Shown here one piece after another: positions 24,442-63,923 of a stretch of DNA of 64,000 bases (its first letter is position 1; each line of letters starts with the position of its first letter). The DNA lies in NCBI GenBank assembly GCA_902798745.1, contig CADBXM010000002.1:124001-188000 (forward strand), written 5' to 3'. The translations under genes and the position numbers were made by a program. The notes below the pieces were generated by a model. The model saw only the letters and a list, made by a program, of their open reading frames with translations. It was not told where the DNA came from and made no database searches. The DNA is from an uncultured Eubacteriales bacterium (lineage in GTDB: Bacteria > Bacillota > Clostridia > Peptostreptococcales > Anaerovoracaceae).

Positions 24442-24565
24442 TATGCAATGATTGTATCAGAGCCATGCTGATACCGCAAGCAAATCCCATCTTTTTTACA
24501 TATTATTGTTGCATAATTTTTGCTTTGTTTTTCGGGATCGGAAACGCGTCTTGCTGAACACACTA

Positions 24566-24880
24566 TCAATAGTCATTTGGCCAGCCTGTAACCACCGCAT
24601 CGGGGAAGTTTGCGTTCGCGTAAGTCAGCATTTTGTCCCTGCCGCTTATATGCGTTGAATGTACGTTAATGTGCTCTGGATGCATGTCATGGCGTTTCAT
24701 ATATTTAAGCGCGTCAAAGCCCGTAAACAGGCTGTCCCATCCGAGATCATAGTCAAGGCTCACTTCCTCCAAGCAGTCTCTGTATTTATCGAGAAGTGCG
24801 AGAAAACCGGCGTAGTTGTCCGCCGATCTATATCCCTCACCACGAGGCGCTGTTCGCCTGTCATCCAGAAACAATTTCAT
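24566..24880 (-). CDS. Cyclic-phosphate-processing receiver-domain protein
   Basis: 104 residues starting MKLFLDDRRTAPRG, with SLDYDLG near residue 40 and VHSTHISGRDKM toward the end. This matches the small receiver-like family annotated as cyclic-phosphate processing Receiver domain. It has a DD pair and a central Asp but no output domain. The function has been proposed from genome context of RNA-repair genes; direct biochemistry is lacking as far as I know. Start has an AGAGG site and lies 15 bases after the preceding gene, so it is in its operon. Confidence 0.65.
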   Translation of the reverse strand: MKLFLDDRRTAPRGEGYRSADNYAGFLALLDKYRDCLEEVSLDYDLGWDSLFTGFDALKYMKRHDMHPEHINVHSTHISGRDKMLTYANANFPDAVVTGWPNDY

Positions 24881-24895
24881 GCTCGCGCCTCTCTA

Positions 24896-25372
24896 TCACG
24901 CCTCGTGCACCAGCTTACCGTTCATATCTTCAATGTCTATGGCGATCAGCAGAGTGTTCTTTGTATCCTTTTCGATCTCGCCCTCAATATACTCTTCCGA
25001 ACATGGGAACTTCCCGCAGAGCAATCTGCTTATTCTATTTATCGTTTCCTCGTCCTCGATGAGCGTCGCTTTGCCGAACACTATGACGCTCTTTACGTAA
25101 AACGCCCAGTCTCCGTCTTTTTTCACGTCCTGACCGAATACGCAATAAGAAACTTTAGGGTCTCTTCTGACTGCATCGACCCTGTGACCGAACTTCGCTC
25201 CGTGAAAATACAGCCTGCCGTCCTCTTCGTTATAATAATGATTGATCGGCACACCATAAGGATATCCGTCATCGCCCTGAACAGACATGACGCCTCTGTT
25301 CTCGCTTTTCAGCAAGTCAATCATCTCCTCGCGGCTCAAGGCCTGAGGTCTTCTTCTCATCTCTCTGAACAT
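24896..25372 (-). CDS. Pyridoxamine 5'-phosphate oxidase-fold flavoprotein (Nim-like)
   Basis: 158 residues of the split-barrel FMN-binding fold: MRRRPQALSREE at the start, GVMSVQGDDGYPYGVPINHYY, LYFHGAKFGHRVDAV and CFGQDV agree with the nitroimidazole-resistance (Nim)-like group. Most members are not proven resistance genes and are best regarded as flavin- or heme-binding proteins of unknown substrate. Lies between the flavin reductase-rubredoxin and receiver-domain genes on one strand. Confidence 0.82.
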   Translation of the reverse strand: MFREMRRRPQALSREEMIDLLKSENRGVMSVQGDDGYPYGVPINHYYNEEDGRLYFHGAKFGHRVDAVRRDPKVSYCVFGQDVKKDGDWAFYVKSVIVFGKATLIEDEETINRISRLLCGKFPCSEEYIEGEIEKDTKNTLLIAIDIEDMNGKLVHEA

Positions 25373-25417
25373 ATAGTTCCCACCCTTATCTCAAGTTCAA
25401 CTTTTAGCCCAAAAGCG

Positions 25418-26080
25418 TTACTGCACTTTTTCAAAATCGCTCTTTGGATGTTTGCAGAGAGGACATACCCAGTCTTCAGGAAGGTCCTCCCACTTGGTTC
25501 CAGGAGCGATGCCGTTTGCCGGGTCTCCGTCTTTTTCCTTGTATTCGTAACCGCAGATAGTGCAGCGATAAACAGCGCCTTCATCAGCTGCCGGAGCCGC
25601 CTTGCGTTTTGGCTTTATATTGCTCTGGTAATCAGCATATGTGCATGAAGGAGTATCCGCCAGCACTTCCATGTCCTCGATCGTGGCCACGAAGAATGTA
25701 TGGGATCCCAGATCGAATGATTCGCACACCTTACATGACATGTAAGCATTGGTGCCCTTAGTGATATACGGAAGGCCGTTTGCCGCTGTGGCGATATCAG
25801 TAAAGTCGGCGAACTTATCCACATCTCTTCCGGACTGCATGCCGAAATGCTGGAACAGATCGAATTTGGCATCGGTGGAAATGATAGAAATGTTGAAAAC
25901 GCCTGATGCCATTACCAGATCGTGGGTGAGATTGGATTTGTTTATAGCCAGTCCTACCCTATCCGGAGTGTTGGCCACCTGAATCGCCGTGTTGGTAATA
26001 CAAGCATTGAGTTTACCGTCGTGTTCCGTAGAAACCACGAAAAGGCCATACGAAAGTTTATACATTGCTTTTGAATTCAT
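25418..26080 (-). CDS. Flavin reductase-rubredoxin fusion (high molecular weight rubredoxin type)
   Basis: 220 residues. The N-terminal 155 are a flavin reductase-like FMN-binding domain ([23 protein letters not shown]). After a linker a rubredoxin domain follows with two cysteine pairs, [10 protein letters not shown] and WVCPLCKHP, binding one iron. In Moorella such a protein (Hrb) passes electrons from NADH to an oxygen- or NO-reducing flavodiiron protein. No flavodiiron protein is in the window. Start at 26080 fits an AAGGAGG site; a longer frame is not supported. Confidence 0.88.
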
Positions 26081-26173
26081 GATTAACCTCCTTGTCAATT
26101 CAATAAGGTATCGATCGCTTTTTTACAAGGTCCAATATATCACGAAACCAGTTCTCTAACAATGAAAAGCGCG

Positions 26174-32786: not shown

Positions 32787-34385
32787 TTACCACGAATTCT
32801 CATCGTCGAGTATCTCGAGAGTAGGATCGAGCGGTTCTTCCTGCATAACTGTTCTCATGAACTGGTTGACCTGGTCTCTTACGCCCTGTCTTGATACAAC
32901 ACGAGGGTCAAAGAGCTGGTGGTCTACCCACATCAGAGGAACACCGAGATCTCTCGCTCTGTCCTCAAAGAGTCCATGCATACCATCGAGAGCCTTACAT
33001 GTGATGTGCTCCCAAAGGATGATCATGTCTGCATTGAACTGCTCAACGAATTCGAAGAGGTCGTCGAGGAGTACTTTGTATCCGCCGTGTGTACGGTTAC
33101 GCATGATCATTTCCTCAGTCAGCATAGCCATATCGTAGTAAGCTTGCTCTCTGTTCTCAGGAGTATCGGTCTCCGCGATCATCTCAGTGTTGATGCATGA
33201 AAGCATGTCTGTCAGAGGCACGATGCCCCAGCAGTTGAGCAGCCATACGAGGAAGTCCATATAGTAGTGCGACTGAACGCCCCATACGATAGCTCTGTGT
33301 CTGTACTCAGGAGCTGCCATTTTGCGCTTCTTGTAAGCCTTCTCAGCGAGCTTTGTGATGCGCTTATCAGCTACTTCGAATTCAGGGACTTTACCGCAGA
33401 TAGCCATGTAGTTGGTCTCTGTGTAAAGTGCGAGATTGCCGCCGAACACCTGTGGATAATCCGTCTTGTTCATGTCGAGCCATTCATTACGCGCCTTTGT
33501 AGCGACATTGACTCTGCGTGCACACTCGAAGTAGTAATCCCAGTCCCACTTGTGGCCTGTGTTCTCTTCGATAAACTTGATCGCTCTTCTGACTTCCTCA
33601 GCAGCGTAGTCCTGTACGTCATCCTCTTTATGACGGAGAGGAGCAGGCAGCTGGAATACAGGAATGCCGTCTTCTCTCTCGAGCTTTCTCGAGAGAACTC
33701 CGTTGGACAGAAGCGAACCATCGCATGTGGTGTTGCACTGGATAGCGCAGGCACCGAGGATAGGAGCATCGTCATCGATAGAAGTACCGGCCTCAGCAGC
33801 AGGCATCGGGCACACGTCTCCAGGGAGTCCGTATTCCTGAACTACGTCGAGATAGTGCTCAACAGCATGCTGGTTGAGAAGTACAGGGACGTATGTGGAA
33901 GGAGTCTCACGGGATGTGCACTTCAGATCAGGGAATCCCATCATAACTGCTGTCATCTCGTTCTCGTCAACGAGTACGTTGATTTTGGAGAACTCCTCGT
34001 CGTTACCGACTCTGCGGTCACCGCGTGCCAGGTTGCCGAGCAGTTTCGCTACGTCGATGATGATAAGATCCTGCTCTTCATGAGCGATCCTGAGGTATTC
34101 GCCTCTGAGACCCTGAGTGAATCTGTCTACCATCATTGGAACTGCCAGGTAGTTGGCCATCCAGCGGTATCTGAAGAAGAATTTGATGTTGCGCGGCACT
34201 ACCATGAATTTACCGAGTGTGAACAGGATGCCCAGCCATCTGGTGTAATCATAGAGTGTGTCTCCGACGCCACGCCATTCTCTTCTCTTACGGACTTTGC
34301 CGTGCGGCTTATAAAGATCGCCGTATCTGGTATCACCCTTGATCTTCTCAGGGTTTACCATTGTCTTAAATTTCTTGCTTGCCAT
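32787..34385 (-). CDS. 2-hydroxyacyl-CoA dehydratase family subunit (532 aa)
   Basis: 532 residues of the HgdB/FldB/BcrC-like superfamily, whose paired subunits hold [4Fe-4S] clusters and remove water from 2-hydroxyacyl-CoAs, or reduce benzoyl-CoA. Conserved-looking cysteines occur in GACAIQCNTTCDGSL and DMLSCINTEM. It is longer than a typical 400-residue subunit, with about 110 extra N-terminal residues. Together with the 397-residue subunit 2 bases upstream it would form a heterodimer. No activator (HgdC type) or CoA-transferase is in the window, so the substrate is unknown. Confidence 0.82.
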   Translation of the reverse strand: MASKKFKTMVNPEKIKGDTRYGDLYKPHGKVRKRREWRGVGDTLYDYTRWLGILFTLGKFMVVPRNIKFFFRYRWMANYLAVPMMVDRFTQGLRGEYLRIAHEEQDLIIIDVAKLLGNLARGDRRVGNDEEFSKINVLVDENEMTAVMMGFPDLKCTSRETPSTYVPVLLNQHAVEHYLDVVQEYGLPGDVCPMPAAEAGTSIDDDAPILGACAIQCNTTCDGSLLSNGVLSRKLEREDGIPVFQLPAPLRHKEDDVQDYAAEEVRRAIKFIEENTGHKWDWDYYFECARRVNVATKARNEWLDMNKTDYPQVFGGNLALYTETNYMAICGKVPEFEVADKRITKLAEKAYKKRKMAAPEYRHRAIVWGVQSHYYMDFLVWLLNCWGIVPLTDMLSCINTEMIAETDTPENREQAYYDMAMLTEEMIMRNRTHGGYKVLLDDLFEFVEQFNADMIILWEHITCKALDGMHGLFEDRARDLGVPLMWVDHQLFDPRVVSRQGVRDQVNQFMRTVMQEEPLDPTLEILDDENSW

Positions 34386-34387
34386 CT

Positions 34388-35581
34388 CTAGCCCTCCTTC
34401 TGGATCTTCTTGATGTCGATACTCTCAATGAAGGCCTGTACACGGGTCCTCATCTGTCCGGAGGTACCGATTGCGTATGGTCTGTCAACAGCGAGCACAG
34501 GATAGCCAAATTCCTCTCTGAGGATGTGTGATCCCATCATTCTCTCATAAGCCCATGGGTCGCAGAACTTCATCTGTTGATAGATGATTCCGTCTGCCTT
34601 GTACTCCTTGGCGATCTCGGCGACGTATTCGCGACGTCCGTCCATCGTCGGAGTATCCATGTAACGAGGGCACTCGCCTCTGTACATGTAGGCCCTGCAT
34701 ACCTGAGTCAGAGCGTCCTCATCATCATTGAGGTAAATAGGGTCTCTGCCAGGGAGTGACCCATAGCAGAATCTGTCAGCGCATACGAATGCGCCGCTGT
34801 CCTCAACGATCTTGATGAAGTCTGTGTCGTCGACCTCGGAGCCTACGACTTCAACTCTTGCCTTGAACCATGGCTTTTCATCCGGTTCTCTCTTCTTGAG
34901 TTCCTCGAGAGTCTCCTCGAGCTTATCCATGATGAGATGCTTAGGAGCAACATACGACGCCAGACAGATCACGTTGTACTCGTAACCTGTGATGGTAGGC
35001 TCGTCGAGCTTTCTGAAGTCTCCGATAGCTCTCAGGAGTTCGCAGACTTTGTTGTGCTGATCGACAGCCTTGCGGATCGCGGCGTCAGATGTGTCGATGC
35101 CGTAATTCTCAGCAAGCGGCTTGAGAATGTGGTTCTGACACTGGACTACGTAGAGATCAAGACCATTGTAGTCGGCCTTCATAGGGATCTCCATATAATC
35201 GAAGAAGAATCCCGGTTTGTCCTTACCCATCGCCTGAAGAACGTCCATGTTCTCGACGCAGCGGTTAAGCATGGTGCAACCGTCAGGTGTGACGCAAGCG
35301 TCAAGATAGTTGTAGCCTCCTTCGAGCGCTCTCTCGAGAATGGCTCTCGAATACTCGCAGAGGAAGCTTGTTAAATAATAAGTTCCTACATCAATCGAAC
35401 CGGTGCGCGGTGCGCGGAGTCTTGATGAAAAGATTCCCGGAAGATTGAGCAGAGGTTCAGGCACGTTTTCGCACATATAGCCTATGCACTTCATGCCTTC
35501 CTTCTGAGCCTGCTGAACAAGCTCGTTGTTAGCTTCCTGCAGCAGGTCTTCGAAGTAGATAAGATGTTTAAGGTCTTTCAT
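34388..35581 (-). CDS. 2-hydroxyacyl-CoA dehydratase family subunit (397 aa)
   Basis: 397 residues, the second member of the dehydratase superfamily pair. Cysteines in CIGYMCENVPE, CVTPDGCTML, CPRYMDTP and the region YQQMKFCDPWAYE near the C-terminus fit the HgdB/BcrB type cluster ligands. It is first in the operon, behind a promoter at 35668-35697 and a leader with two dyads. Both subunits together suggest amino-acid fermentation by the 2-hydroxyacyl-CoA route or an aromatic reductase; the sequence cannot separate these. Confidence 0.82.
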   Translation of the reverse strand: MKDLKHLIYFEDLLQEANNELVQQAQKEGMKCIGYMCENVPEPLLNLPGIFSSRLRAPRTGSIDVGTYYLTSFLCEYSRAILERALEGGYNYLDACVTPDGCTMLNRCVENMDVLQAMGKDKPGFFFDYMEIPMKADYNGLDLYVVQCQNHILKPLAENYGIDTSDAAIRKAVDQHNKVCELLRAIGDFRKLDEPTITGYEYNVICLASYVAPKHLIMDKLEETLEELKKREPDEKPWFKARVEVVGSEVDDTDFIKIVEDSGAFVCADRFCYGSLPGRDPIYLNDDEDALTQVCRAYMYRGECPRYMDTPTMDGRREYVAEIAKEYKADGIIYQQMKFCDPWAYERMMGSHILREEFGYPVLAVDRPYAIGTSGQMRTRVQAFIESIDIKKIQKEG

Positions 35582-49341: not shown

Positions 49342-50022
49342 ATGAATGACAAACGCATCAGAAATATTCCGGCACTTTCGGAAGCGGATATGGAAAAGCT
49401 CGCTGAGAGTCGCGTGCTCATTGCGGGCTGCGGCGGACTCGGAGGTAATGTAACAGAGCATTTCGCAAGACTCGGGGTCGGTCATCTCATCGTTGTTGAC
49501 GGTGATGATTTCGAGGAATCGAATCTCAACCGCCAGATACTTTGCTTATCGGACAACATCGGTCAAAGCAAGGCCGCAGCAGCGGCAAGCAGGGTAAAAC
49601 TGATCGATCCGGATATCGAAGTCCGTGCGGTAAATGAATATATCACAAAAGAAAACGCGGCTGCTCTTATGGCAGACGCGGATATAGTTATAGACGCGCT
49701 TGACAGTATCTCGGCGCGATTGATGCTCGAAGATGCCGCTGTGGAAGCGGGCCTTTACATAGTCCATGGTGGAATAAACGGTTGGGAGATGCAGGCTATG
49801 CTGGTGCCGCCGGGTTCCGGGCTTATGCACAGCCTATATGAAGGCCTAGAGGAAGATGCTATCAAAACATCGCTTGCGATGACTCCTGCAGCATGCGCAT
49901 CGATCCAGGTGTCGCTTGCTGTCAGCCACATATGCGGCCGTAGTCCTGAACTCGAAGGCAAACTCATAACAGGTTCTCTTCGTGATATGCATTTCGATGT
50001 ACTCGATATGGGCCTCGAATAA
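49342..50022 (+). CDS. ThiF/MoeB/HesA-family adenylating enzyme
   Basis: 226 residues. ATP site LIAGCGGLGG (about 27-35), the Arg finger in ESNLNRQIL and DALDS near residue 125 mark the E1-like fold that adenylates the C-terminal GlyGly of MoaD/ThiS proteins. It lacks the CxxC zinc pairs of MoeB, as do the HesA-like versions found with aldehyde oxidoreductases. The MoaD-like protein at 52.9 kb is a likely substrate. No clear Shine-Dalgarno; it starts 19 bases after the channel gene. Confidence 0.85.
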   Translation: MNDKRIRNIPALSEADMEKLAESRVLIAGCGGLGGNVTEHFARLGVGHLIVVDGDDFEESNLNRQILCLSDNIGQSKAAAAASRVKLIDPDIEVRAVNEYITKENAAALMADADIVIDALDSISARLMLEDAAVEAGLYIVHGGINGWEMQAMLVPPGSGLMHSLYEGLEEDAIKTSLAMTPAACASIQVSLAVSHICGRSPELEGKLITGSLRDMHFDVLDMGLE

Positions 50023-50046: not shown

Positions 50047-51510
50047 TCAATGCCCCTTATCAGGGCATTTTTCATTTGCAAGCATATCATTTATGCGCTT
50101 GAAGCAGCGACTGCCCTGGCATTTCCCCAGGCCGGCACCTGTGCGACGCTTTACAGCCTCGATATCATTCGCCCCCCTCTCGATCGCCTGCCTTATTTCA
50201 GCCTTGGTGACATCCATGCAGAAACAGATCACATCCCCGTATTCAGGGTCTCTGCTGATGATCTCGGCCCGCTCTTCCGGGCTCAGATCTCTCGCTCTTA
50301 TTATCGGATCCCTGTGCGGATCGAAGCCTTCGTTAAGGTCAGTTCGGCCGACTATTTCCGCTGCTCTGTCCGCAACGATACGCCCAAGCTCATCGGCAAT
50401 GGTCATTCCGGGAGTCCTTATGCCAAAGAGGCTCAGCATCCCGTTCTCTTCTAAAATGCTCACATCACTTATCTTTTCATCACTTCTGATAAACTCACCA
50501 TCCTGCATAGAGACATAGTAAGGTCTGGGTCTTAAAGATCCAAATGTCCTTATTCTCTTTGACAGGTCGAGTCCCGGTACTATCTCATCGCAAAGATCCT
50601 CCAGGTTCCTGATGCCGTCATCTTCTGTCCTGAAGCTGTGATCGACCATCTCATCATCAGGCAATTGCCTTCTGGTTGGGCCAAGCAGAAGGCTGCCATC
50701 TACTGTAGGAACTATCGTGAGTCCTTTGCCATCCTCAGTCTCGTGGAATACTATATGTTCCACACATCTGCCGGTATCTCCCGGTGACGGCCTGTCAAGG
50801 ATCATATAATCCGCTGCTTTTGGAAAAATACGCGCGAGTGGCTTTTCTGTCATCTCTCTCACTCTGTCAGCATAAAGACCGGCGGCATTGATGACAACCT
50901 TTGCATTCCAAGCTTCGCAAGATGTGCTTACGACAAAGCCACCACTCGTCTTGACGCCCTCCTCCGGCTCTTCTCTTCTAATATCGGTGACAGCGTTGTT
51001 GAATACAAATTTTGCTCCGTTGTTTCTCGCGTTCTCGTAAGCCGCTATGCACAGATCCCAAGGATCTACTGTGCCGGTGCTTTCAGAATAAAGAGCTGAT
51101 GTGATCCCTTTGGCGAGCATCGGCTCGATAGCTTCAGCTTCGTAGCCGCTGAGAAGTTTGATCCCCGGCACGCCATTCTCTTTCCCCTGTTTATATTTTT
51201 TTCGTATGACAGAATCGGCCTCAGGCCCATAGCCCACCATAATAGATCCCGGTCGTGAAAAAGCAACTCCAAGATCTGAGCAAAGACGATCAAATTCTCT
51301 GTTTGCCTTTACACACAGTTTACTCTTGAGAGTCCCGGGCTTGTTATCATAGCCTGGATAGATTATCCCGGTATTTGCTCTGGAAATACCGCGGCAAACA
51401 TCGCCCTCCTGCTCGAGCACCGTAACATCAATATTGTAGCGCATAAGATTTCTGGCTGTGAAGCAGCCAAGTAATCCGGCACCGATTATGACCACATCTG
51501 TCTTTACCAT
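50047..51510 (-). CDS. FAD-dependent dehydrogenase with C-terminal BFD-like [2Fe-2S] domain (GlpA/LhgO type)
   Basis: 487 residues. DAO-fold FAD site (VVIIGAGLLGCFTARNL), GIIYPGYDNKPGTL and the C-terminal RTPGMTIADELG. The last 75 residues form a BFD-like iron-sulfur domain with cysteines in VICFCMDV and GLGKCQGSRCFKRI. This layout is shared with anaerobic glycerol-3-phosphate dehydrogenase GlpA and 2-hydroxyglutarate oxidases. It usually comes with a second flavoprotein and a DUF1667 protein; here the second one is divergent at 51.6 kb. Confidence 0.83.
   Translation of the reverse strand: MVKTDVVIIGAGLLGCFTARNLMRYNIDVTVLEQEGDVCRGISRANTGIIYPGYDNKPGTLKSKLCVKANREFDRLCSDLGVAFSRPGSIMVGYGPEADSVIRKKYKQGKENGVPGIKLLSGYEAEAIEPMLAKGITSALYSESTGTVDPWDLCIAAYENARNNGAKFVFNNAVTDIRREEPEEGVKTSGGFVVSTSCEAWNAKVVINAAGLYADRVREMTEKPLARIFPKAADYMILDRPSPGDTGRCVEHIVFHETEDGKGLTIVPTVDGSLLLGPTRRQLPDDEMVDHSFRTEDDGIRNLEDLCDEIVPGLDLSKRIRTFGSLRPRPYYVSMQDGEFIRSDEKISDVSILEENGMLSLFGIRTPGMTIADELGRIVADRAAEIVGRTDLNEGFDPHRDPIIRARDLSPEERAEIISRDPEYGDVICFCMDVTKAEIRQAIERGANDIEAVKRRTGAGLGKCQGSRCFKRINDMLANEKCPDKGH
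50050..50078 (+). terminator. ThiF-gene terminator embedded in the converging gene
   Basis: ATGCCC-cttatca-GGGCAT followed by TTTTCATTTG. The stem is formed by the last seven codons of the GlpA/LhgO-type gene, so the same bases code on one strand and terminate on the other. Confidence 0.75.
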
Positions 51511-51556: not shown

Positions 51557-51615
51557 TTTCTTGAGTGAGTCTGCACATTTATCCTGTGGATGATCACTGC
51601 AAACGGAGAGTATAT

Positions 51616-52560
51616 ATGACTTCTGTAAAGAGATATAAAACTGAAATATTGGTGATCGGTTGCGGAGCAGCCGGCATGGCATGCGCCTCAGCGGCGGCGG
51701 AGACAGGAGCATCTGTTATCGCAGCAGATGAAAGGAAAACGTCGGGAGGAGTGCTCCCTCAGTGCGTTCACAAAGGCTTTGGTCTCGGTAGATATGGTAA
51801 GGAAATGACCGGACCGGAATACAACGAAGAAGAATATCGTCATTTTGAAAACTCCGGGGCTGTCTACATGCCGGGAAGCCGTGTGCTCTCGATTTCTTCG
51901 GAAGGAGATGCCGGTAAAGCTCTGCTCTCTCATCCCGGCGGCATATGCGAGGTGTATTTCATGGAATGTGTCCTGGCAACCGGCTGTCTGGAGAGATCGA
52001 TATGGTCGCTCGGATTGGCGGGGACAAGGCCTCTTGGAGTATATACTGCCGGAGAGGCGCAGGAGATGATAGAACTCGGAGGCTACGATATCGGAGACCG
52101 CATATTCATACTCGGCAGCGGTGACATAGGCCAGATTATGGCTCGTAGATTCAGACAGCTTGGAAAGACGGTCATATGCATGGCCGAGATAAAAGACCAT
52201 CTCGGCGGTATGAAACGAAATCAGGAGGAATGCATAAAGGCTTACGATATCCCTGTCATGCTCAGGACTACAATAACAGAAATACACGGCTATCCCCACC
52301 TCACCGGGGTCACCGTGCATCACATTGATACAGATGAATATGAATATATCGAATGTGAGACTCTGATCAGCTCACTTGGGCTTATTCCCGACAAGTCGCT
52401 TGCCGATGGCCTCATGATCACCGATGCAAACGGAAACAAAGCTTATCCTGAGTGGCTCCATTTCTGCGGCAATGCCGACTACGTGCATGACATAACAGAC
52501 AGCGCTTCATCACAAGGCGAAAAGCTCGGGCGCATGCTCGCTAATAAACTACATCAATAG
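51616..52560 (+). CDS. NAD(P)/FAD-dependent oxidoreductase (partner of GlpA-type dehydrogenase)
   Basis: 314 residues. FAD site ILVIGCGAAGMACASAA, then VLPQCVHKGFGLG, and a second dinucleotide site RIFILGSGDIGQIMA. This resembles the COG0446 flavoprotein normally co-encoded with the GlpA/LhgO-type dehydrogenase, probably passing electrons from it. Here it is transcribed divergently from that gene. Start at 51616 has GGAGAG; a longer frame lacks one. Its last 20 bases overlap the end of the ferredoxin gene on the other strand. Confidence 0.8.
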   Translation: MTSVKRYKTEILVIGCGAAGMACASAAAETGASVIAADERKTSGGVLPQCVHKGFGLGRYGKEMTGPEYNEEEYRHFENSGAVYMPGSRVLSISSEGDAGKALLSHPGGICEVYFMECVLATGCLERSIWSLGLAGTRPLGVYTAGEAQEMIELGGYDIGDRIFILGSGDIGQIMARRFRQLGKTVICMAEIKDHLGGMKRNQEECIKAYDIPVMLRTTITEIHGYPHLTGVTVHHIDTDEYEYIECETLISSLGLIPDKSLADGLMITDANGNKAYPEWLHFCGNADYVHDITDSASSQGEKLGRMLANKLHQ

Positions 52561-52918
52561 CCTTCTTAGGGCACTTTGATGCGCAGAAGCCACATCTGAA
52601 ACACTTGCTCTCATCGATCCTGAATGGCTTCTTAACTTCTCCGTAAGGAGCTTCAGCGGGGCAGTTACGCTTGCAAAGTGTGCATCCTATACACTTTTCT
52701 TCGTCTATTATTACGCTGATTATCTCGCGATGGCCGGGAGCAGGGCTTATCGCTCCATTAGGACATATCTGCTCGCACTGGCCGCATCCCAAACACTTTT
52801 CAGCGTCTATAGTATATTTCTTCTTTTTCCAGTCAGCCGGCTGAGGCACATTGAAAAGGCATTCATACGCGCACGCACCGCATCCGACGCAAAGTTCGTT
52901 ATCTATTATGTACGCCAT
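52541..52918 (-). CDS. Ferredoxin-type protein with four [4Fe-4S] motifs
   Basis: 125 residues with four CxxCxxCxxxC motifs: CVGCGACAYEC, CLGCGQCEQIC, CIGCTLCKRNC and CFRCGFCASKC. It could hold four [4Fe-4S] clusters, making it a polyferredoxin-like electron wire and the probable electron acceptor of the aldehyde oxidoreductase encoded two genes upstream. It follows the MoaD-like gene by one base and is last in the operon. Confidence 0.92.
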   Translation of the reverse strand: MAYIIDNELCVGCGACAYECLFNVPQPADWKKKKYTIDAEKCLGCGQCEQICPNGAISPAPGHREIISVIIDEEKCIGCTLCKRNCPAEAPYGEVKKPFRIDESKCFRCGFCASKCPKKAIDVVY

Positions 52919-52919
52919 A

Positions 52920-53207
52920 TCAGCCTCCTGATGCAGGTGACATCAGCCAGATCTCATCACCGTCCGACAGCTTTTGTCTCTTTCTCGGGCATCGCTTTCC
53001 GTTTATATAAACGATCGCGTCGCTGAAAGATATGACATCGGGACGCTCGAGTGAAGGGTCGTCCTTGAGCCGTTCTTCATAGATCGTGGTGATCTCCTCA
53101 TTTACAAAACCGAATATATCTCCCAGCTTGTCGGCGGATACCTCCGACGCCGCGAGTCCTGTGTCGACTCTGAGAACGCCAAACAGTTTAACAGTCACTT
53201 TAGCCAT
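52920..53207 (-). CDS. MoaD/ThiS-family sulfur carrier protein
   Basis: 95 residues ending in MSPASGG; the C-terminal Gly-Gly is the site of adenylation and thiocarboxylation. A ubiquitin-like fold is expected. In tungsten/molybdenum aldehyde oxidoreductase clusters such MoaD paralogs serve pterin cofactor synthesis. It overlaps the oxidoreductase gene by 8 bases. The ThiF/HesA protein at 49.3 kb is its likely activator. Confidence 0.87.
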   Translation of the reverse strand: MAKVTVKLFGVLRVDTGLAASEVSADKLGDIFGFVNEEITTIYEERLKDDPSLERPDVISFSDAIVYINGKRCPRKRQKLSDGDEIWLMSPASGG

Positions 53208-55137
53208 CTGTTCTCGCCTCCCTCACGACACTTTCATAGTAATCTTTGTCCATTTTCACTCCGAAACGTTTCAGAGTCTTATATTTCGGGATACCATCTA
53301 CCCAGCCTCTGGCTTTATAGTAATCCTTTTTCAGCCTTTCAAGCGGCACTTTAGTCCTTGGGTCGTTAGGATCCTGCTGCACATCGGTAAGCCTTTTAGG
53401 AAGCTTGTCGGCACCAGCCTTCTGCCCAAGTATTATATTGGCCATCCTCTCCATATTGTAGCCATGCGAACCTACTGTAAGAAGTGTGCCGAGGGTTGCG
53501 TGGAAATCGCATACATGATTAAGCGCCATACTGTGTGGGATGAGCGGTATGTTGATTTGCGCAAGTCTAGTAAACTTATTCAGCACGTTGACTGCTGGCC
53601 CGACATAAGGGAAAGCTGCGAGTATCGCCCTCGTAAGCAGCCAGTTTGGCTTTTCCACCAAGAATCCCGGAAATACCGCATAACTGGTGAACATACATGA
53701 GCCGCAAGCGGATATGGCTTCCATCAGATTCTGGAACATGATGGTGATCGATGCTTTTCCGCGTGGAGTGAGTGAATCCACATCGAGACCGAGACCTTCA
53801 AGCACGACCATGTAGCCCGCGTTGAGGTGGCATCCCCCGCGGTTTGCTGTCGCATAGCCAAGTCCCTGGCCAACAGCGCGCCTAGGTTCGTATGCCGCAA
53901 GTTCCATGCCCTTGGCATGAATGGCAAATTCCTTACCGCCGAACTTTTCGCTCATGCGCTTTGTTCCATTGGCAAGATCATCGCCCACCCCCTCGCGGTG
54001 AGCTATCTTTTCGATAATCTCTGAGATATTGTCAGTCTTACCGAACTCGAGCCCGGAATCCCAAAGGCCTTTTTCGTTGAGCTCCATGGCAAACGCGATA
54101 GACCCCGCAGCGGAGATCGTATCCATGCCAAACTCATCGAGCTCGTAATTCCATTTGAGGATATTTTCTATATTATCGTTCAGGATATTCGGTCCAAGCA
54201 GACCTAGCACTTCAAGCTCGGGCCCTTTTACGGTCTTGCCATCGACTTTCACCGCTCTTCCGCATCGAATGACACATGTTGTACATGCCGAATTAGAGAC
54301 GAGGTGGTGCGCCGTCAGTTCTTCGCCCGATACTGATTCGAAGCCATCAAAACGCCCTGCGCTGAAATTTTTCGTAGCGAGTATGCCGTGAGCCTGCATC
54401 GCGGAAACGAGTCCTGCAGTCCCCATCTTAGGAAGCTGCCTTCCTGTGAGAGGATGGGTCATAAGAGTTTTTACCCATTTGCGGTTGAACTTTTTGAGTT
54501 TTTCCGGCTTGGCTACTTCGACGGTCTTCACGCCTTTTACGGTAACAGCTTTGAGATTCTTGTCTCCGAATACAGCTCCTACACCGCCTCTTCCCGATGT
54601 GCGCTCACCACTGAAAACGCATGAATAAAGCACCTTATTCTCTCCCGCAGGGCCTATGACCAGTTTGTCTGTGTCCTTTGGCAGTTTTTCCTGAGCCTCG
54701 GTCACTTTGAGTCCCCAGATGTCCTTTGCGCTTTTGAACTGTACACTGTCCGCGGTTATTTCCACGGTGGTAGGCTCTTTGGCTTTGCCTGTTATTATGA
54801 GCGCGTCATAGCCCGCCCTTTTCAGAGACAAGCCAAAATCACCGCCGCAGTTAGACGATGTCACTATATTGGTAAGCGGTGAGATAGTGGATATATTGAA
54901 CCTCGATGTGTTGGGACAACCGGAGCCTGTGAGCGGCCCGGTCGTCACAACAAGCCAATTGTCTTCATCGAATGCTTTCATTCCCGGACGTACGTGTTGG
55001 AACAGTATGTCCGATGCCATTATCTTACCGCCTATAGTGCGCTTTCTGTCTTCGTCGGTCCATGGAAACAGTCTGTGATTCTGTTCTGTGAGGTCGATCC
55101 TAAGGACCTTCCCCATGTACCCCTTTAGATTTGACAT
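53200..55137 (-). CDS. aor: Aldehyde:ferredoxin oxidoreductase family (tungsten/molybdenum bis-pterin)
   Basis: 645 residues. The start GYMGKVLRIDLTEQ is characteristic, and CTTCVIRC near residue 285 supplies CxxCxxxC cluster ligands; ACGSCMFTSYAVF lies near residue 480. AOR enzymes oxidise aldehydes to acids with ferredoxin as acceptor, or reduce acids to aldehydes. Substrate specificity is not readable. The gene begins 18 bases after the glycyl radical enzyme and is followed by MoaD and ferredoxin genes, so the radical enzyme's product is the best candidate substrate. Confidence 0.93.
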   Translation of the reverse strand: MSNLKGYMGKVLRIDLTEQNHRLFPWTDEDRKRTIGGKIMASDILFQHVRPGMKAFDEDNWLVVTTGPLTGSGCPNTSRFNISTISPLTNIVTSSNCGGDFGLSLKRAGYDALIITGKAKEPTTVEITADSVQFKSAKDIWGLKVTEAQEKLPKDTDKLVIGPAGENKVLYSCVFSGERTSGRGGVGAVFGDKNLKAVTVKGVKTVEVAKPEKLKKFNRKWVKTLMTHPLTGRQLPKMGTAGLVSAMQAHGILATKNFSAGRFDGFESVSGEELTAHHLVSNSACTTCVIRCGRAVKVDGKTVKGPELEVLGLLGPNILNDNIENILKWNYELDEFGMDTISAAGSIAFAMELNEKGLWDSGLEFGKTDNISEIIEKIAHREGVGDDLANGTKRMSEKFGGKEFAIHAKGMELAAYEPRRAVGQGLGYATANRGGCHLNAGYMVVLEGLGLDVDSLTPRGKASITIMFQNLMEAISACGSCMFTSYAVFPGFLVEKPNWLLTRAILAAFPYVGPAVNVLNKFTRLAQINIPLIPHSMALNHVCDFHATLGTLLTVGSHGYNMERMANIILGQKAGADKLPKRLTDVQQDPNDPRTKVPLERLKKDYYKARGWVDGIPKYKTLKRFGVKMDKDYYESVVREARTDG

Positions 55138-55155
55138 AGTGCTTCTTTTTATTGT

Positions 55156-58128
55156 TTACATTCCGTAATCCGCACGATTAACGAGTTCGAGCTGCAGTTC
55201 TCTGTTGAGCTGTGTGAAGTACGCGTTGTAACCCGAGATACGTACCATAAGGTCTTTGTATTCATCAGGCCTTGCCATTGCAGCGCGCATCGTTTCCGAC
55301 GAAACGACGTTGAACTGCATCTGCATTCCGCCGAGATCCGCATATGCCTTGGCGTAATCCTTCACGTGCTCAACTGTCTGCCAATGTTTATCCTTAGGCG
55401 ATGGATTTACCTTTACATTGAAAGCGATGTTGTTATTCATGCTCTCAGGATCGAGCCTTGTTACGTCGCGGATGTTATCGAGTAAGCTCTTCGAAGCGTT
55501 CGCTTCAGGTGTGAGTCCCGGAGTGAACGGCTGGTACGCAAGACGGCCCGATGGAAGAGCTCCTGTGAGCGATCCGAACGCTACGTGGTTGGACATCGAC
55601 CAGAATCCTGTGGTGTAGTGCCCGCCGCGGAAGTTCAGATGTGACCAGAAGCAGTCCTTCATAAACTTCGTGACTTTATTGGCCATCTCGACAGCCTCAT
55701 CGTTGCCCGATCCGAAGCGTGAAGTCTCTGTGAGGATGACGCTCCTCATCGCTTCATAGCCCTCGAAGTTGTTCTTTACGCCTTCGATCAGCTCAGCGAA
55801 GCTGTATTTCTTGCGGTCAAATACGAGTTCCTTGATAGCCATGAGCGAATCTACTATATCCGCAAGACCGATACATGCGGTTCCGGATGAATTATACTTA
55901 GCTCCGCCCTTTGTGCAGTCAACACCCTTTTCGATACAGTTGTCGATCATAGCGCTCATGAGTGGTGTAGGACGAAGCACTGCATGGGCCTCGCCTAGAT
56001 AATTGTTGTACTGGCATGTGAGGTCGGCCAGGCATTCAAGCTGTTTGAAAAATGCCTCGAGGAATTCGTCGAACGTCTTGAAGTCAGCGGCTTCCCCTGT
56101 CTTTGGCCCGAGGTGCCATCTCATAAGCGGATGGTAGCCGTTATAAAGGGCCATCTCGAGAGCTGCCACCATATTGAACATCATGCAATTGGTATGTCCT
56201 ATATGCTTACCTGAGATCGTAGGCTCCACGCATCCGGTCGCCGACCAGTCGCGGAGATCTTCAAGCTCATAATTATGCTCGACGAGCGAAGCCATTACCG
56301 TCTCGTCACTGTGGATCGATGGTGTCGATGTAGTATGTACGTTTACCTCGCACAGACGGCGGAGATACGCCTCGCTGTTCTTCTTGTGGTTGTATCTCGC
56401 GTTGACGTTAGGGTCCCTCATACCGAGGATCTCGGTAACCTTGAGGAAGACATATGTCATGTCATTGACCGCGTCTTCTCCCTCAGGTGTGATTCCTCCG
56501 AGAGTGATAGCCTGATCGGACGAGCTTCCGCCGAACAGGTAGTTGCCGATATCCGGCACCATAGGAACGTGATCCTGGCAGCGCAGATAGAAGCATCCAA
56601 GAAGCTCTATCACATGCTTTATATAAGCGTCGCGTTCTTCCTTTGTTTTGATCTTGGCCATATCCGCCTCGAAGATCGGCTGTAGCCACTGATCCATACG
56701 TCCGAGGGAGAATCCGGCGTTGGTGCTCTCCATATGCACGCCGATCCAGTGTACCCAAATAGCGTGGACTGCCTCGTCCATATTGCGCGCAGGGAATTCA
56801 GGCGAGTGCTCTACCGCATCTGCGATCACTTTCAGTTCACGGCGTCTCTCAGGATCCTTCTCAGCTCTCATTTCCTTGCGAGCCTGCTTCGCGAGGTTGT
56901 GAGCGTATGCGATCATTCCCTCGTAGCAGAGTATCATCGCTTCGAGTTCATTCTTCTTTTCTTCTGAGTTGCCCGGCTTTGCCAGCTCCGCTTTGACCTC
57001 TTCGATTATGCCCGAAAGACCAAGTCTCAGTAGCTTTGGATAATCGAGAATAGTGTGCGATAGCGCTACCGTCTTCCACATGAAGCAGGCAGCCCAGCGC
57101 TCGTCGAGCTGCTGGCAAACAGGTTCATTGTATTTGTCACGTACGTATTCTCTGAACGAGCGCTTCACCCAATAAGGGAAGACGTCTTTGTTCAGAACGT
57201 CTATCTCCCACTTCTTTAGTGGCTCATACGGCTGTATCATTCGCTCGCTGACGGTGAGAAGTTCGCCCCAGAGAAGCGCGCCCACTCCATCAGGATAGAT
57301 AGGCACTCCTATCTCTTTTGTTGTGGTAGTGCCGGCGAGCAGGTCACCCTCGCGGATGATCGGCTGCTTATGCTCCATAAGATATTTGAAAACATGGCCC
57401 TGGCGAAGTTCAGGTACCCATGGTGTACCGTCTTTCTTCGTCTCAAAGCCGTTTTCCCTGTGCCATTCAGTAACGAGCTGTGCTCTCTCTACGCAGACTG
57501 CCGGTCGGTAACTGAGATGCCTGTCAAGATAATCGGCAAGCCTCGGATAATCATCGCGGCTGTAAGTGGAAAGATACTGGTCGTCTCTTATGTATTTGAC
57601 GCCTGGATCGGCATTCTCTTCCTTGAGGAATTCAAGCGGCGGACGTACGCGCTCTGCGTCCGGATCGTCTGCCATCGCTCTTCCCGTCTCGGCTCTCTCT
57701 TCGATCTGCTCGTGCATCTGCTTTACCTGCTTGTCCTTCATAAGAACTGAGATCATCAGATTGAAGAGCTCGAGATAAGCCATGTTTCCGCTGCTCGCCA
57801 TCTTGTTCTTGAGCATCAAATTGAGCACTTCGTTAGGAGGAAGTGTTGCAAGTTCTGCCAGCACGCTGACGTCCTGAAGTATCAGCTTGGTGTCCACGCC
57901 CTCTACATTGCTTTTGACTTTCGCCTTGCCGTCTTTGAACCAGATACTTTGGGCAACGCTGCCATCCTCCGTAGTAAGACCGATGGAGAAATTTGTCCAC
58001 CCGTCTTTGTTTTTCAGGTAGTCTTGATTCTTCTTTACTTTCGTGAATTCAAAAGCGAAGAAATGAAGTACTGCATTTGCCAGCCTGTTCGCCGCAACGC
58101 CAATCGCCTCGTCCTTCTGAATCTTCAT
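55156..58128 (-). CDS. Glycyl radical enzyme with N-terminal SCP2-like domain
   Basis: 990 residues. Residues about 8-115 look like an SCP2 sterol-carrier domain (GWTNFSIGLTTEDGS, TKLILQDVSVLAELATL, then KMASSGNMAYLELF). The PFL-like barrel follows from about 150, with catalytic Cys633 and Glu635 in SATGCVEP. The Gly radical site RISGYNAY has its glycine at 966. C-x-E is the pattern of dehydratase, lyase and decarboxylase members, not pyruvate formate-lyase, which has adjacent cysteines. Known members are about 780-900 residues, so the extra domain is notable. Start at 58128 has GGAGGGG; the activase is directly upstream. Confidence 0.88.
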   Translation of the reverse strand: MKIQKDEAIGVAANRLANAVLHFFAFEFTKVKKNQDYLKNKDGWTNFSIGLTTEDGSVAQSIWFKDGKAKVKSNVEGVDTKLILQDVSVLAELATLPPNEVLNLMLKNKMASSGNMAYLELFNLMISVLMKDKQVKQMHEQIEERAETGRAMADDPDAERVRPPLEFLKEENADPGVKYIRDDQYLSTYSRDDYPRLADYLDRHLSYRPAVCVERAQLVTEWHRENGFETKKDGTPWVPELRQGHVFKYLMEHKQPIIREGDLLAGTTTTKEIGVPIYPDGVGALLWGELLTVSERMIQPYEPLKKWEIDVLNKDVFPYWVKRSFREYVRDKYNEPVCQQLDERWAACFMWKTVALSHTILDYPKLLRLGLSGIIEEVKAELAKPGNSEEKKNELEAMILCYEGMIAYAHNLAKQARKEMRAEKDPERRRELKVIADAVEHSPEFPARNMDEAVHAIWVHWIGVHMESTNAGFSLGRMDQWLQPIFEADMAKIKTKEERDAYIKHVIELLGCFYLRCQDHVPMVPDIGNYLFGGSSSDQAITLGGITPEGEDAVNDMTYVFLKVTEILGMRDPNVNARYNHKKNSEAYLRRLCEVNVHTTSTPSIHSDETVMASLVEHNYELEDLRDWSATGCVEPTISGKHIGHTNCMMFNMVAALEMALYNGYHPLMRWHLGPKTGEAADFKTFDEFLEAFFKQLECLADLTCQYNNYLGEAHAVLRPTPLMSAMIDNCIEKGVDCTKGGAKYNSSGTACIGLADIVDSLMAIKELVFDRKKYSFAELIEGVKNNFEGYEAMRSVILTETSRFGSGNDEAVEMANKVTKFMKDCFWSHLNFRGGHYTTGFWSMSNHVAFGSLTGALPSGRLAYQPFTPGLTPEANASKSLLDNIRDVTRLDPESMNNNIAFNVKVNPSPKDKHWQTVEHVKDYAKAYADLGGMQMQFNVVSSETMRAAMARPDEYKDLMVRISGYNAYFTQLNRELQLELVNRADYGM

Positions 58129-58139
58129 CTTGTCCCCTC

Positions 58140-59054
58140 CTATATACACTCAATATTTCTATCTGTAAAAATGCTTTTGCAATGTTCTATCTTTTCCTTG
58201 GACTGCCAATGATCGAGGCCTTGGAGTTCTTTGTCGATCTCCAATCCCAGTTTGGCGGTCTTTTTGTACCATGTCGGATTGTATGGCAGAAGCTCTGTCT
58301 CCGTCACTCCGAGCTTGTTATAAAACCCAGCTATTGCCGTGAGGTTCTCATCCGTGTCGGTGATGTCGGGTATGAGGGGTGTCCTCGGCAATATGGAGAA
58401 TCCCATCTCTTTTGAGTCGCTGAGCAAGAGCTCAAAATTCTTGAGAATCAACTCGTTTGTCACTCCGCAGTATTTCTTATGAGCCTCCGAGGCGAATATC
58501 TTTATGTCCATATAAATGCTTGAAATATATGGCAACAGGTATTCTTTGATCTTCTCATAATTGAAGCAGCCACAGGTCTCAAGATGTACATGTATGCCTT
58601 GCTCAACCAATGCCTTCGCGAGCGCTCCTACCCATTCCGGGAACAACGTGGCCTCGCCGCCTGTCAGCGTCACTCCGCCTCCCGATACATCATAGAATGG
58701 TTTGTCTCTGACGCACTTTTCAACGATATCTTCTATCTCGTATTCCTTGCCCACTCTCTGAAGAGCCTTTGGAGGGCATGTCTCTGTGCATTTGAAACAG
58801 AGTGTGCAGCGGCTGCGGTCTACTATGCCTTCTCTTTTCGGTGAAGCTGCGCCTTCAGGGCATGTCTTCTCGCAGGTGCCGCATCCTATGCAGTCATCCA
58901 GCGATACCGAGAGCTCCGATTCTGTCCTTTTGCTCTCAGGGTTATGGCACCATATGCAGCTGAGCGGACAGCCCTTGAAGAATATCGCTGTGCGTATTCC
59001 GGGCCCGTCATCAAGTGAGTTTCCCTTTAGTTCGAGCACTAACGGTGCTTTCAT
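58140..59054 (-). CDS. Glycyl radical enzyme activase (radical SAM)
   Basis: 304 residues. DDGPGIRTAIFFKGCPLSCIWCHNPE includes, in separate parts, the radical SAM CxxxCxxC triad (GCPLSCIWC). A two-cluster ferredoxin insert follows, CIGCGTCEKTC and CTLCFKCTETC, and then GGGVTLTGGE for SAM binding. It abstracts hydrogen from the glycine of its partner to make the radical. The insert is typical of activases for non-PFL enzymes. Start at 59054 has AAAGGGG; it ends 11 bases before its partner gene. Confidence 0.93.
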   Translation of the reverse strand: MKAPLVLELKGNSLDDGPGIRTAIFFKGCPLSCIWCHNPESKRTESELSVSLDDCIGCGTCEKTCPEGAASPKREGIVDRSRCTLCFKCTETCPPKALQRVGKEYEIEDIVEKCVRDKPFYDVSGGGVTLTGGEATLFPEWVGALAKALVEQGIHVHLETCGCFNYEKIKEYLLPYISSIYMDIKIFASEAHKKYCGVTNELILKNFELLLSDSKEMGFSILPRTPLIPDITDTDENLTAIAGFYNKLGVTETELLPYNPTWYKKTAKLGLEIDKELQGLDHWQSKEKIEHCKSIFTDRNIECI

Positions 59055-59080
59055 CTCTAATCTTCCCCTTTGCAGAAACA

Positions 59081-59111
59081 AAAAACTGTCACCTACATTA
59101 TAACAGTTTTT
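59081..59111 (-). promoter_or_regulatory. Promoter and operator-like dyad of the glycyl radical/AOR operon
   Basis: AAAAACTGT (59081-59089) and ACAGTTTTT (59103-59111), perfect 9-base arms 13 apart. On the minus strand an extended -10 TGTTATAAT (59105-59097) starts in the upstream arm and ends in the spacer, so a dimeric regulator bound here would cover the promoter. The same arms could form a weak A/T-rich terminator hairpin, but the upstream gene already has a better one. Confidence 0.55.
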
Positions 59112-62167: not shown

Positions 62168-62626
62168 TTAGAATGGATCGGAAACGAGCACTTTGCCGTC
62201 TTCCTGGATGATGATGTTCATGCCGTCTTTGACATATTCAAGGAACTCATCACCTAGCGAATCGATAACAGGCATCTTGCTCTTCGGATCATCCAGCCAC
62301 ACGTCCGCAAGTACCGCGCCTGCCGCCGCGAGCGAATCTATAGGATTTGAGAAGAGCATGCACGCAGGCTGTCTTCCCATGGCACACGCGCAATAAAGCA
62401 CGAGCCCTCCCGTTGTGGAGCCAATGGTCTGAGGAAGGCATACCGCCTTGCCTGCCATCTTCTTGCCGTAAAGATCAGGATTGTTCTGATCGCCACATGT
62501 CGCTGTCTTGTCACCAAACTGCAGCGCTTTCTGGAAGGAAGCGAGCGTATTGAGACCACCGTGGGAAACCACAGCTTCAGCAGTTACCCTGCCGGGTGCA
62601 ACTACCCTGCCCTGAAAAGTCTTCAT
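62168..62626 (-). CDS. Aconitase X swivel domain protein (DUF126, small subunit)
   Basis: 152 residues. GRVVAPGRVTAEAVV at the start and KAVCLPQTIGSTTGG, with the Ser of GST, are the DUF126 signature; this is the swivel domain of aconitase X enzymes. In this organism it is a separate subunit, as in archaeal phosphomevalonate dehydratase, while many bacterial AcnX proteins are fused. It starts one base after the catalytic subunit gene ends. Confidence 0.9.
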   Translation of the reverse strand: MKTFQGRVVAPGRVTAEAVVSHGGLNTLASFQKALQFGDKTATCGDQNNPDLYGKKMAGKAVCLPQTIGSTTGGLVLYCACAMGRQPACMLFSNPIDSLAAAGAVLADVWLDDPKSKMPVIDSLGDEFLEYVKDGMNIIIQEDGKVLVSDPF

Positions 62627-62627
62627 T

Positions 62628-63923
62628 CTATTTGCCTCCTTTCCTGTTTGCAGTGATCTGCTCTAATATCTCGTCATCTGTGTAATAACGAGCCGATGTA
62701 TAAGTTCTGAGCTTGTTGCTCGATGTTATTACAGGCATCTTCTCGCTGAGAGGATTGTTCATATACATCAGTGGGCAGATATACGAAGTGATGACACCCG
62801 TAGCCTTGAGCCTATCCGCGTAATCGGTCTTACCGAATGCTTCGAGCACGTCAGGCGCAGCTGTGAATACCGTAGGAACGGATACCTTCGTTGCACCGCT
62901 CTTCGCGAGGCCCTTCTCGACCTTATCTGTCCAGTCCTTGAGCTGCTGAAGGCTCATATGTGGGCAACCCATGAAGCAGAGTTTTGGCTTCGCGTCGGCG
63001 TTCTTCCAGATGACCGGATACTCTTTGTAGACTCTTTCAAGTTCAGCATCGTCGATCACATATACCTTCGCGTCTTCCTTGATGAGCTTTTTGCCTTCCT
63101 TAACGGCTTCAGGCGTGAGATTCTCCACGTGATAGAGACCGACTGCTCCGTTTGATGCTGTAGCAGCTCCGAAGTCCTTGAGGTATGTGCAGGCTTCGTC
63201 ATCAAGCTTCTTGCCGATCCACTTATCAAGGCCCTTGATATATGGTACGTCCTCCATCACCTTCATGCCGATGGCAGAACCAAGCAGCTGGGCTTCAGGT
63301 TTCTTCTTTGTCTTTATCTCGATGATCCAGTCAGCTTTACGGCCCTCATCTGTGAGAAGACCGAATTTAGGCACATAACCGATGACAGATCCCATCAGGT
63401 CAATGATGCCGGAATTCCTGTTGCACCTTGCGCCGAGCACCGAGTTGGCATACACGACCGCTGATGACTCAGACCAGCTGAGAACCTCGCCGAAGCCAGG
63501 CTTATTGCCGACTTCGTCCATGTAGCATGTGCATGTGAACGCGTTGTCCGAAAGGAGCCCAAGATCCGCAAGCTGCTTCTCGTAGTCGTCCTGACGGCTG
63601 TACATAAACAGCTTGAATACGATGTCCTGAGCGATATTGGTCGGCACATTACTGTCGAGAGGCTTAGGGTCTACCGTGAACTTCTGGCCCGAAGGCGCGC
63701 CTGCCTCGAGCAGCTTGTCCATCAGTTCATAGACAGGTCCGAGAGCCTTGAGGCCGAACGATGTTACGAGATGGTTGTACTTGCTGCTGATAGGCACCAT
63801 TTCGGTGGCTCCGAAGAGCTCTCCGTATCTGACGAGCGACTCCATGACTTTGGCAAGTGTTTCACCTTTGGAGCCTTCGAGGATGGCCTTTTGCTCGTCC
63901 GTCAGCTTTAATTTGTAATCCAT
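62628..63923 (-). CDS. Aconitase X catalytic domain protein (DUF521, large subunit)
   Basis: 431 residues of the DUF521/AcnX catalytic family. It opens LTDEQKAILEGSKGETLAKVMESLVRYGE in pieces; MVPISSKYNHLVTSFG, GARCNRNSG and CFMGCPHMS supply conserved residues and cysteines for an Fe-S cluster. Known functions are cis-3-hydroxyproline dehydratase in bacteria and phosphomevalonate dehydratase in archaea; neither can be assigned here. Ribosome site GAAGGGAG. First gene of acnX large-small, probably continuing into rbr. Confidence 0.9.
   Translation of the reverse strand: MDYKLKLTDEQKAILEGSKGETLAKVMESLVRYGELFGATEMVPISSKYNHLVTSFGLKALGPVYELMDKLLEAGAPSGQKFTVDPKPLDSNVPTNIAQDIVFKLFMYSRQDDYEKQLADLGLLSDNAFTCTCYMDEVGNKPGFGEVLSWSESSAVVYANSVLGARCNRNSGIIDLMGSVIGYVPKFGLLTDEGRKADWIIEIKTKKKPEAQLLGSAIGMKVMEDVPYIKGLDKWIGKKLDDEACTYLKDFGAATASNGAVGLYHVENLTPEAVKEGKKLIKEDAKVYVIDDAELERVYKEYPVIWKNADAKPKLCFMGCPHMSLQQLKDWTDKVEKGLAKSGATKVSVPTVFTAAPDVLEAFGKTDYADRLKATGVITSYICPLMYMNNPLSEKMPVITSSNKLRTYTSARYYTDDEILEQITANRKGGK

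Follow-up and report, generated by a model that had tools for sequence, protein, structure and literature searches.

What does a bacterium do with a glycyl radical enzyme (GRE) that carries an extra N-terminal domain, and whose gene runs straight into that of an aldehyde:ferredoxin oxidoreductase (AOR)? The question is raised by a 64,000-nucleotide stretch of DNA (the window) from an uncultured Eubacteriales gut bacterium of the family Anaerovoracaceae (GenBank assembly GCA_902798745.1, contig CADBXM010000002.1, positions 124,001 to 188,000 of the forward strand). Five genes follow each other there, all on the minus strand, and encode a radical SAM activase, the GRE itself, an AOR, a MoaD-like protein, and a ferredoxin. 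Read from the sequence, their junctions measure +11, +18, -8, and +1 bases in this order, in agreement with a preliminary description of the window that had given gaps or overlaps of 1-18 bases and a GRE of 990 residues, which is also the length read here. The operon is confirmed as genuine, beyond a chance arrangement, and the identical five genes lie in identical order at locus L002, where the GRE and AOR are 94% and 91% identical to those of the window. This operon hints at an oxygen-free route, so far unknown, for the breakdown of a fatty compound, and it offers two defined enzymes, and a class of product, that can be put to the test.

The GRE (55156..58128, minus strand, with its ATG at 58128 and its stop ending at 55156) matches the Pfam PFL-like and Gly_radical families above their cut-offs. 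Its residues are numbered on a 991-residue translation that starts one codon before the ATG, and one must be subtracted to obtain the protein number. The predicted thiyl-radical cysteine, C634 (56230..56232, minus strand), is found with the presumed base E636 in a GCVEPT motif that aligns to the GCVEP motif of 1r8w, while the predicted glycyl radical residue, G967 (55231..55233, minus strand), is carried by RISGYNAYF. Together with H359, these residues are invariant in 45/45 homologues. Two eliminase-type features are therefore present, a glutamate two residues after the cysteine and an acid at the H164 position (H359), the functional roles of E636 and H359 being those that we take these positions to have. 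As these four residues are invariant, the enzyme probably catalyses an elimination that gives a carbonyl product. The predicted model shows a GRE barrel that matches 1r8w and others, so that structure prediction and active-site comparison, as proposed in the preliminary description, lead to the glycerol and propanediol dehydratases as nearest structures, with the eliminase set of Cys, Glu, and His in place.

To which GRE class does the enzyme belong? It passes no curated NCBIfam equivalog cut-off, scoring 437.6 bits against trans-4-hydroxy-L-proline dehydratase (NF043068, cut-off 1100) and 399.4 bits against choline trimethylamine-lyase (TMA-lyase; TIGR04394, cut-off 1050), both of which form separate clades. 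In the tree, which like the others used here comes from a "quick" search without bootstraps, its clade excludes the sampled rows of hydroxyproline dehydratase (HYPD), choline lyase (CutC), and indoleacetate decarboxylase (IAD). The activase (58140..59054, minus strand; 304 amino acids) matches Pfam Radical_SAM and Fer4 and has two extra [4Fe-4S] motifs. It exceeds the cut-off of the NCBIfam subfamily TIGR02494 (264.9 vs. 174.35), and every GRE-activase equivalog listed scores under its own cut-off.

The N-terminal part of the GRE, at about residues 20-150 of 991 (57682..58074, minus strand), is identified as a sterol carrier protein 2 (SCP2) domain from Pfam matches in homologues and from Foldseek. 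Taken alone, the window GRE gives no SCP2 match in Pfam. When 41 N-terminal stretches (that of the window among them) are scanned singly, 24 match PF02036 at E<=1, the best at 1.6e-5, and two match the alkylsulfatase C-terminal domain; a profile built from all 41 weakly finds SCP2 chains in the PDB (E 0.07). The predicted domain model has a pLDDT of 86.0, and its best Foldseek matches, at probability 1.00, are UbiJ-SCP2, SCP2, and the alkylsulfatase SCP2 domain. The SCP2 fold is thus established by prediction, and the "SCP2-fused GRE" of the preliminary description is upheld by the homologues and the predicted fold, not by the window protein alone. A domain of this kind may bind lipid.

How widespread is this fusion? 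A single scan of genome contigs returned 159 relatives; the analysis used the best 80, at 46-94% identity, with flanks of up to 8 kb that were often ended by contig edges. According to record titles, rows of the SCP2-GRE clade come from Bacillota, Thermodesulfobacteriota, Myxococcota, Spirochaetota, and Chloroflexota, and isolate names suggest gut and rumen, sludge, groundwater, and sediment as habitats of the carriers. Of 296 genomes sampled from the window's family, six contain the SCP2 part: the window's genome, four congeners, and G253. The SCP2-GREs form a separate, uncharacterised clade that is apparently undescribed. Two loci, L061 and L063, carry a tandem pair of SCP2-GRE genes, and in L061 the two copies flank an activase gene.

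From these elements a pathway can be proposed, the one that we favour. The activase would place the radical on Gly967. The SCP2 domain would bind the hydrophobic portion of an amphipathic substrate whose polar head, either a 1,2-diol or a glycerol ether, would enter the barrel. The Cys634 thiyl radical would then abstract a hydrogen atom and Glu636 would accept the hydroxyl proton; the neighbouring C-O bond would break with His359 as acid, yielding an aldehyde. The AOR would oxidise this aldehyde to the acid and pass the electrons to the four-cluster ferredoxin, a step that might conserve energy. As a whole, this coupling of a GRE eliminase acting on a lipid-tailed substrate to a tungsten-type AOR module is in our judgement evenly poised between right and wrong. 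To narrow the substrate to a single named class, the alkylglycerol or archaeol-type ether lipids, is speculative, and we would regard with similar doubt the suggestion that SCP2-GRE is the missing anaerobic ether-lipid lyase, cleaving C-O bonds by radical chemistry, with the AOR oxidising the aldehyde in this lineage. If that were true, membrane ether lipids would become an energy source in the rumen, digesters, and sediments.

The AOR (53200..55137, minus strand; 645 amino acids) is AorB-like, with N- and C-terminal AFOR domains (Pfam AFOR_N and AFOR_C), four Fe-S cysteines, and an active-site Glu and His. Its best-scoring solved structure is 1aor, to which these Cys, Glu, and His positions align, their roles being presumably the same. 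It is followed by a MoaD/ThiS-like protein (52920..53207, minus strand), AorD-like with a C-terminal GG, which passes Pfam ThiS (24.1 bits, cut-off 22.5) and stays below TIGR01687 (30.7 of 49.5), and by an AorA-like ferredoxin (52541..52918, minus strand) with four [4Fe-4S] motifs in four Fer4 stretches. In the nearest AOR relatives, from the L008 and L051 genomes, the AOR is followed by MoaD and then by one fused protein that joins four Fer4 motifs to an alcohol dehydrogenase of the iron type (L156 scanned with Pfam, L157 assigned by clustering). This fusion brings another aldehyde-handling partner, and is counted in favour of the pathway. The window ferredoxin is 62% identical to both fusion proteins and equivalent to their N-terminal part; the alcohol dehydrogenase part is missing after it, and GRE and activase stand upstream. 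From this arrangement we infer that the AOR module changed its aldehyde source. Similar fusions are seen in G280 (scanned), L162, and L163 (clustering), while the two parts seem to be separate proteins in several others, L165 among them.

Other carbonyl enzymes adjoin other GRE loci, and these too are counted for the pathway. In L004 (by scan) and L007 (by clustering), the gene immediately downstream of the GRE encodes an aldo/keto reductase with an Fe-S domain. Two short-chain dehydrogenase/reductases (SDRs), one extended and one classical, are fused in L026 and L032 and encoded separately in L029-L031 and L034 (scanned for L026 and one protein of L029, otherwise assigned by clustering), and SDR-type dehydrogenases near the GRE occur in several sediment-type bacteria. 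A 3Beta_HSD match had suggested a steroid reading, which was rejected because the same protein scores more highly with the Epimerase model. By clustering, 31/80 loci have a TetR-type regulator family near the GRE (one scanned). Genes for an MlaE permease, an FGGY kinase, a phosphatase-like, and an AMP-binding protein in the L020 area were left unused, since they sit among FliS and Maf in closely related loci. Downstream of the GRE in L033 is an HGD-D and BadF/BcrA-type ATPase pair.

How tight, then, is the association between GRE and AOR? An AOR lies inside the fetched flanks at 13/80 GRE loci (L002, L015, L017-L025, L044, and L045), in the order GRE, ferredoxin, AOR, MoaD in L015, and as a divergently transcribed gene with a ferredoxin match in L018-L024. 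On the GRE tree of 45 family rows, which leaves out L044 and some of the L017-L024 loci, no fewer than 5 state changes are required to account for AOR presence; eight of the loci with an AOR, L017-L024, seem to represent a single lineage. The window protein falls, in the AOR tree, in a seven-row clade (support 98) with every row from a GRE-bearing genome; such genomes were sampled deliberately, and the evidence for a lack of others in it comes from the family and class samples. Its sister clade has 15/17 rows from genomes without an SCP2 match, the other two being L142 and L119. A second, distant subfamily (support 100), near which the tree warns of long branches meeting, unites the AORs of L018-L020, L022, L024, L025, and L045 with the GRE-near one in L044; those of L017, L021, and L023 are outside the tree.

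Any AFOR_N match is found in 30/34 GRE genomes examined vs. 67/148 genomes of the order (own included), and a rough chance model on 32 de-duplicated genomes gives 6 observed against about 0.5 expected, both the 34 genomes and the model's sample having been partly chosen with the AOR already known. A window-type AOR (46% or more) is present in 9/19 GRE genomes (the window's own and those of L002-L016, L044, L051, and L064) and, among 196 class genomes, in its own and G661. Within the family, it occurs in 3/6 SCP2-GRE genomes vs. 24/290 others (p 0.011), or in 2/5 once the own genome and its sibling are merged (p 0.063). Across nine genomes, GRE and AOR identities correlate at 0.75 (4/5000 permutations as high), and at 0.63 without two near-duplicates (79/5000), species kinship being uncorrected in both. 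The link is real but loose, and AOR is optional across the family. The two-step pathway of the preliminary description is plausible and supported in part, by an eliminase class, a predicted lipid-binding domain, and a repeated AOR association, including AOR near the GRE at those 13 loci, which together point to a lipid-derived aldehyde that is oxidised to an acid. Its five-gene set is not general: the same order is seen only here and in L002, another order in L015, and some relatives give no AFOR_N match at all. A failure of the two enzymes to co-occur in relatives had been named there as a ground for refutation, and on this point the outcome is mixed.

The history of the two genes seems to involve transfer. 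The L008 and L051 genomes, both titled Lachnospiraceae, have AORs 82% and GREs 80-81% identical to the window's (81% for the L051 GRE), while the best match to the window's GltX is 42% over part of the protein in the L051 genome and a fragment in the L008 genome. Given this disparity, both genes look horizontally shared, which suggests that GRE and AOR both crossed lineages, contamination of the L008 and L051 metagenome-assembled genomes being a further possibility. The operon itself would have been assembled late.

Several observations weigh against so dedicated a pathway. GltX is a weak control for transfer, as the protein matched in L051 could belong to a different type of GltX. Window-type AORs are found in 27/296 family genomes, and 24 of these genomes lack an SCP2 match; MoaD-like and ferredoxin genes adjoin most of the AORs examined there. 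The closest GRE relatives apart from L002 have no AOR nearby: L003-L007 (GRE 85%, GltX 84-87%) show none in the fetched flanks, and their genomes have no window-type AOR elsewhere. Since G205, G207, G209, and G212 give no AFOR_N match (4/34 GRE genomes examined, genome completeness not stated), the GRE seems able to work without AOR. At several GRE loci, among them L016, L051, and L064, the genes next door are unrelated and do not suit a carbonyl pathway. Two of these points, the AORs in genomes without an SCP2 match and the lack of an AOR in the closest relatives, would also be expected if the AOR module were a general aldehyde-detoxifying or -interconverting unit that landed downstream of the GRE, sharing its promoter while serving separate pathways. 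That explanation is a serious minority possibility. It is opposed by the recurrence of the pairing across separate lineages and with AORs of two subfamilies, and by the excess over the rough chance model, whose sample was picked in part with the answer in view. A further alternative would have the AOR run in reverse, from acid to aldehyde with ferredoxin, and leave the GRE to a separate branch. AORs can reduce non-activated acids (PMC9295118, in its available part), and the module's partner in the nearest relatives is indeed an alcohol dehydrogenase; this part is missing in the window, where no aldehyde consumer adjoins among the scanned genes, and the reverse direction is improbable.

The substrate is a matter of similar debate. 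Mean column identity is 39% over the N-terminal stretch (41 rows) vs. 62% over the full-length GRE (45 rows), and the core fold and catalytic residues resemble those of small-substrate enzymes, as one would expect if the substrate were small and hydrophilic, a diol or an amino alcohol, and the SCP2 domain merely anchored the GRE to the membrane or a partner. Yet 78/80 matches start within the first 50 residues, the other two beginning at or near a contig end (a count over the best 80 of 159, a selection biased towards long matches), and the positions that we take to bind glycerol in 1r8w are altered: D447 is replaced by N or G, H281 mostly by A, S282 by G, and Y339 mostly by D, with a further change at the glycerol site from Y640 to W. 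A small substrate is unlikely on this evidence, but the same changes also cut against a glycerol head group in the lipid-tailed scheme, where the head may therefore be something else. Might the GRE instead resemble the arylacetate or benzylsuccinate enzymes, and act as a decarboxylase or on C-C bonds? Such enzymes belong to the same superfamily, and there are partial matches to the indoleacetate and 4-hydroxyphenylacetate decarboxylase models NF033718 (274.9 of 1100 bits) and NF033715 (206.2 of 1150). The arylacetate decarboxylase and known eliminase equivalogs were nevertheless rejected on the cut-offs and the tree. The preliminary description had named a place inside a characterised clade, such as the arylacetate decarboxylases, as fatal to its reading; the GRE falls outside the sampled HYPD, CutC, and IAD rows, and this alternative is very improbable indeed.

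Beyond the operon, an FAD/NAD(P) oxidoreductase (51565..52560, plus strand; Pyr_redox_2) is its convergent neighbour, with a 44% homologue near the AOR of L164 in genome G280. An FAD-dependent oxidoreductase (50047..51510, minus strand; DAO with a BFD [2Fe-2S] domain) has a 51% homologue there as well, and the two probably belong to the AOR neighbourhood. A ThiF/MoeB-like activating enzyme (49342..50022, plus strand; ThiF), with homologues near the AORs of L160, L161, and L164, is a possible partner of the MoaD-like protein. Two MoeA genes, an ABC transporter, and ThiF are close to the AOR in L164, and a MogA-like gene in L160. The DAO protein scores 174 of 460 bits against glycerol-3-phosphate oxidases and 121.5 of 552.8 against GlpA. 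Since homologues of all three genes lie near an AOR in G280, which is not among the six family genomes with an SCP2 match, they were dropped as evidence for a glycerol substrate, the DAO gene in particular. In the same organism, contig C12 (L225:1046-3019) encodes a second, distant AOR of 657 amino acids. It is adjoined by a protein labelled by eye as TupA-like (tungstate-binding), by what we take to be the TupA motif, which suggests that this organism uses tungsten. For the bis-pterin tungsten cofactor expected of an AOR, this neighbour is an indirect sign.

Upstream of the activase is a terminator-like stem of 11 pairs (59178-59152), although stems of this kind are weak evidence by count, with 8 found in the region vs. 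5.6 +/- 2.1 in shuffles. A TATAAT at 59102-59097 was spotted by eye, and the consensus promoter scan lists none there. It is flanked by an inverted repeat, AAAACTGT/ACAGTTTT (window 59082-59110), which was rejected as a conserved operator because it is not present in L002. Elsewhere in the window are two 2-hydroxyglutaryl-CoA dehydratase D-component proteins (32787-35581), an Aconitase X by Pfam (62628-63923) with a small neighbour (62168-62626) that may be its partner, and a cluster of a 930-amino-acid flavin/Fe-S oxidoreductase, a TetR-type regulator, and a flavin reductase-rubredoxin fusion (20896-26098). As the preliminary description had stated, no aldehyde dehydrogenase or microcompartment family is found among the nearby open reading frames scanned, the rest of the window not having been searched for them.

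Has such a system been described before? The preliminary description knew of no pathway with this gene set, and a literature search, with most subscription journals outside its coverage, likewise found no description joining GRE and SCP2, for which it brought up only fungal genomics that is unrelated by title, and no GRE-AOR operon. The available part of a paper on an Asgard archaeon mentions GRE and AOR separately, that of a gut GRE review contains neither "aldehyde ferredoxin" nor "ether," and the search of the ether-lipid literature returned nothing on a GRE.

Comparison with known systems shows what is shared and what is added. To our knowledge, known eliminase-type GREs act on small polar molecules. 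Relative to the B12-independent glycerol/1,2-propanediol dehydratases (1r8w, 5i2g, 9rco), the window GRE adds SCP2 and differs at the five positions named above, and it is separate in the tree from row L184, taken as glycerol dehydratase-like by motif alone. CutC, which releases an aldehyde, shares the fold, the GCVEP motif, and a Thr at the T502 position (44/45 GRE homologues), but the window GRE has a His where CutC has an Asp (presumably D216), and tree and cut-off exclude membership. The alkylsulfatases SdsA1 and Pisa1, and UbiJ, have an SCP2 fold joined to, or assisting, enzymes with hydrophobic substrates; the window GRE shares this fold, but its catalytic domain is unrelated to theirs. 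The YbiW/PflD GREs (8id7 and 8id0, both among the structural matches) have no SCP2 domain that we know of, and their substrate is a soluble sugar phosphate. The window AOR reaches 381 bits with 1aor but 279 with 8c0z, which is, we believe, the Aromatoleum enzyme. For ether C-O cleavage by a GRE, a precedent is offered by the YbiW/PflD enzymes, which cleave 1,5-anhydro-sugar phosphates (PMC12441222, in the part available). For the oxidising half, the closest model is the AorABC(DE) system of Aromatoleum aromaticum, described in the accessible portions of two papers as a four-cluster ferredoxin AorA, a W-binding AOR AorB, and MoaD-like AorD/E (PMC6365974, PMC10413684). The window operon has AorA-, AorB-, and AorD/E-type parts; it has no established AorC, the FAD subunit of AorABC-type complexes, with the FAD/NAD(P) oxidoreductase adjoining it on the opposite strand, and unlike that system it includes a GRE and its activase.

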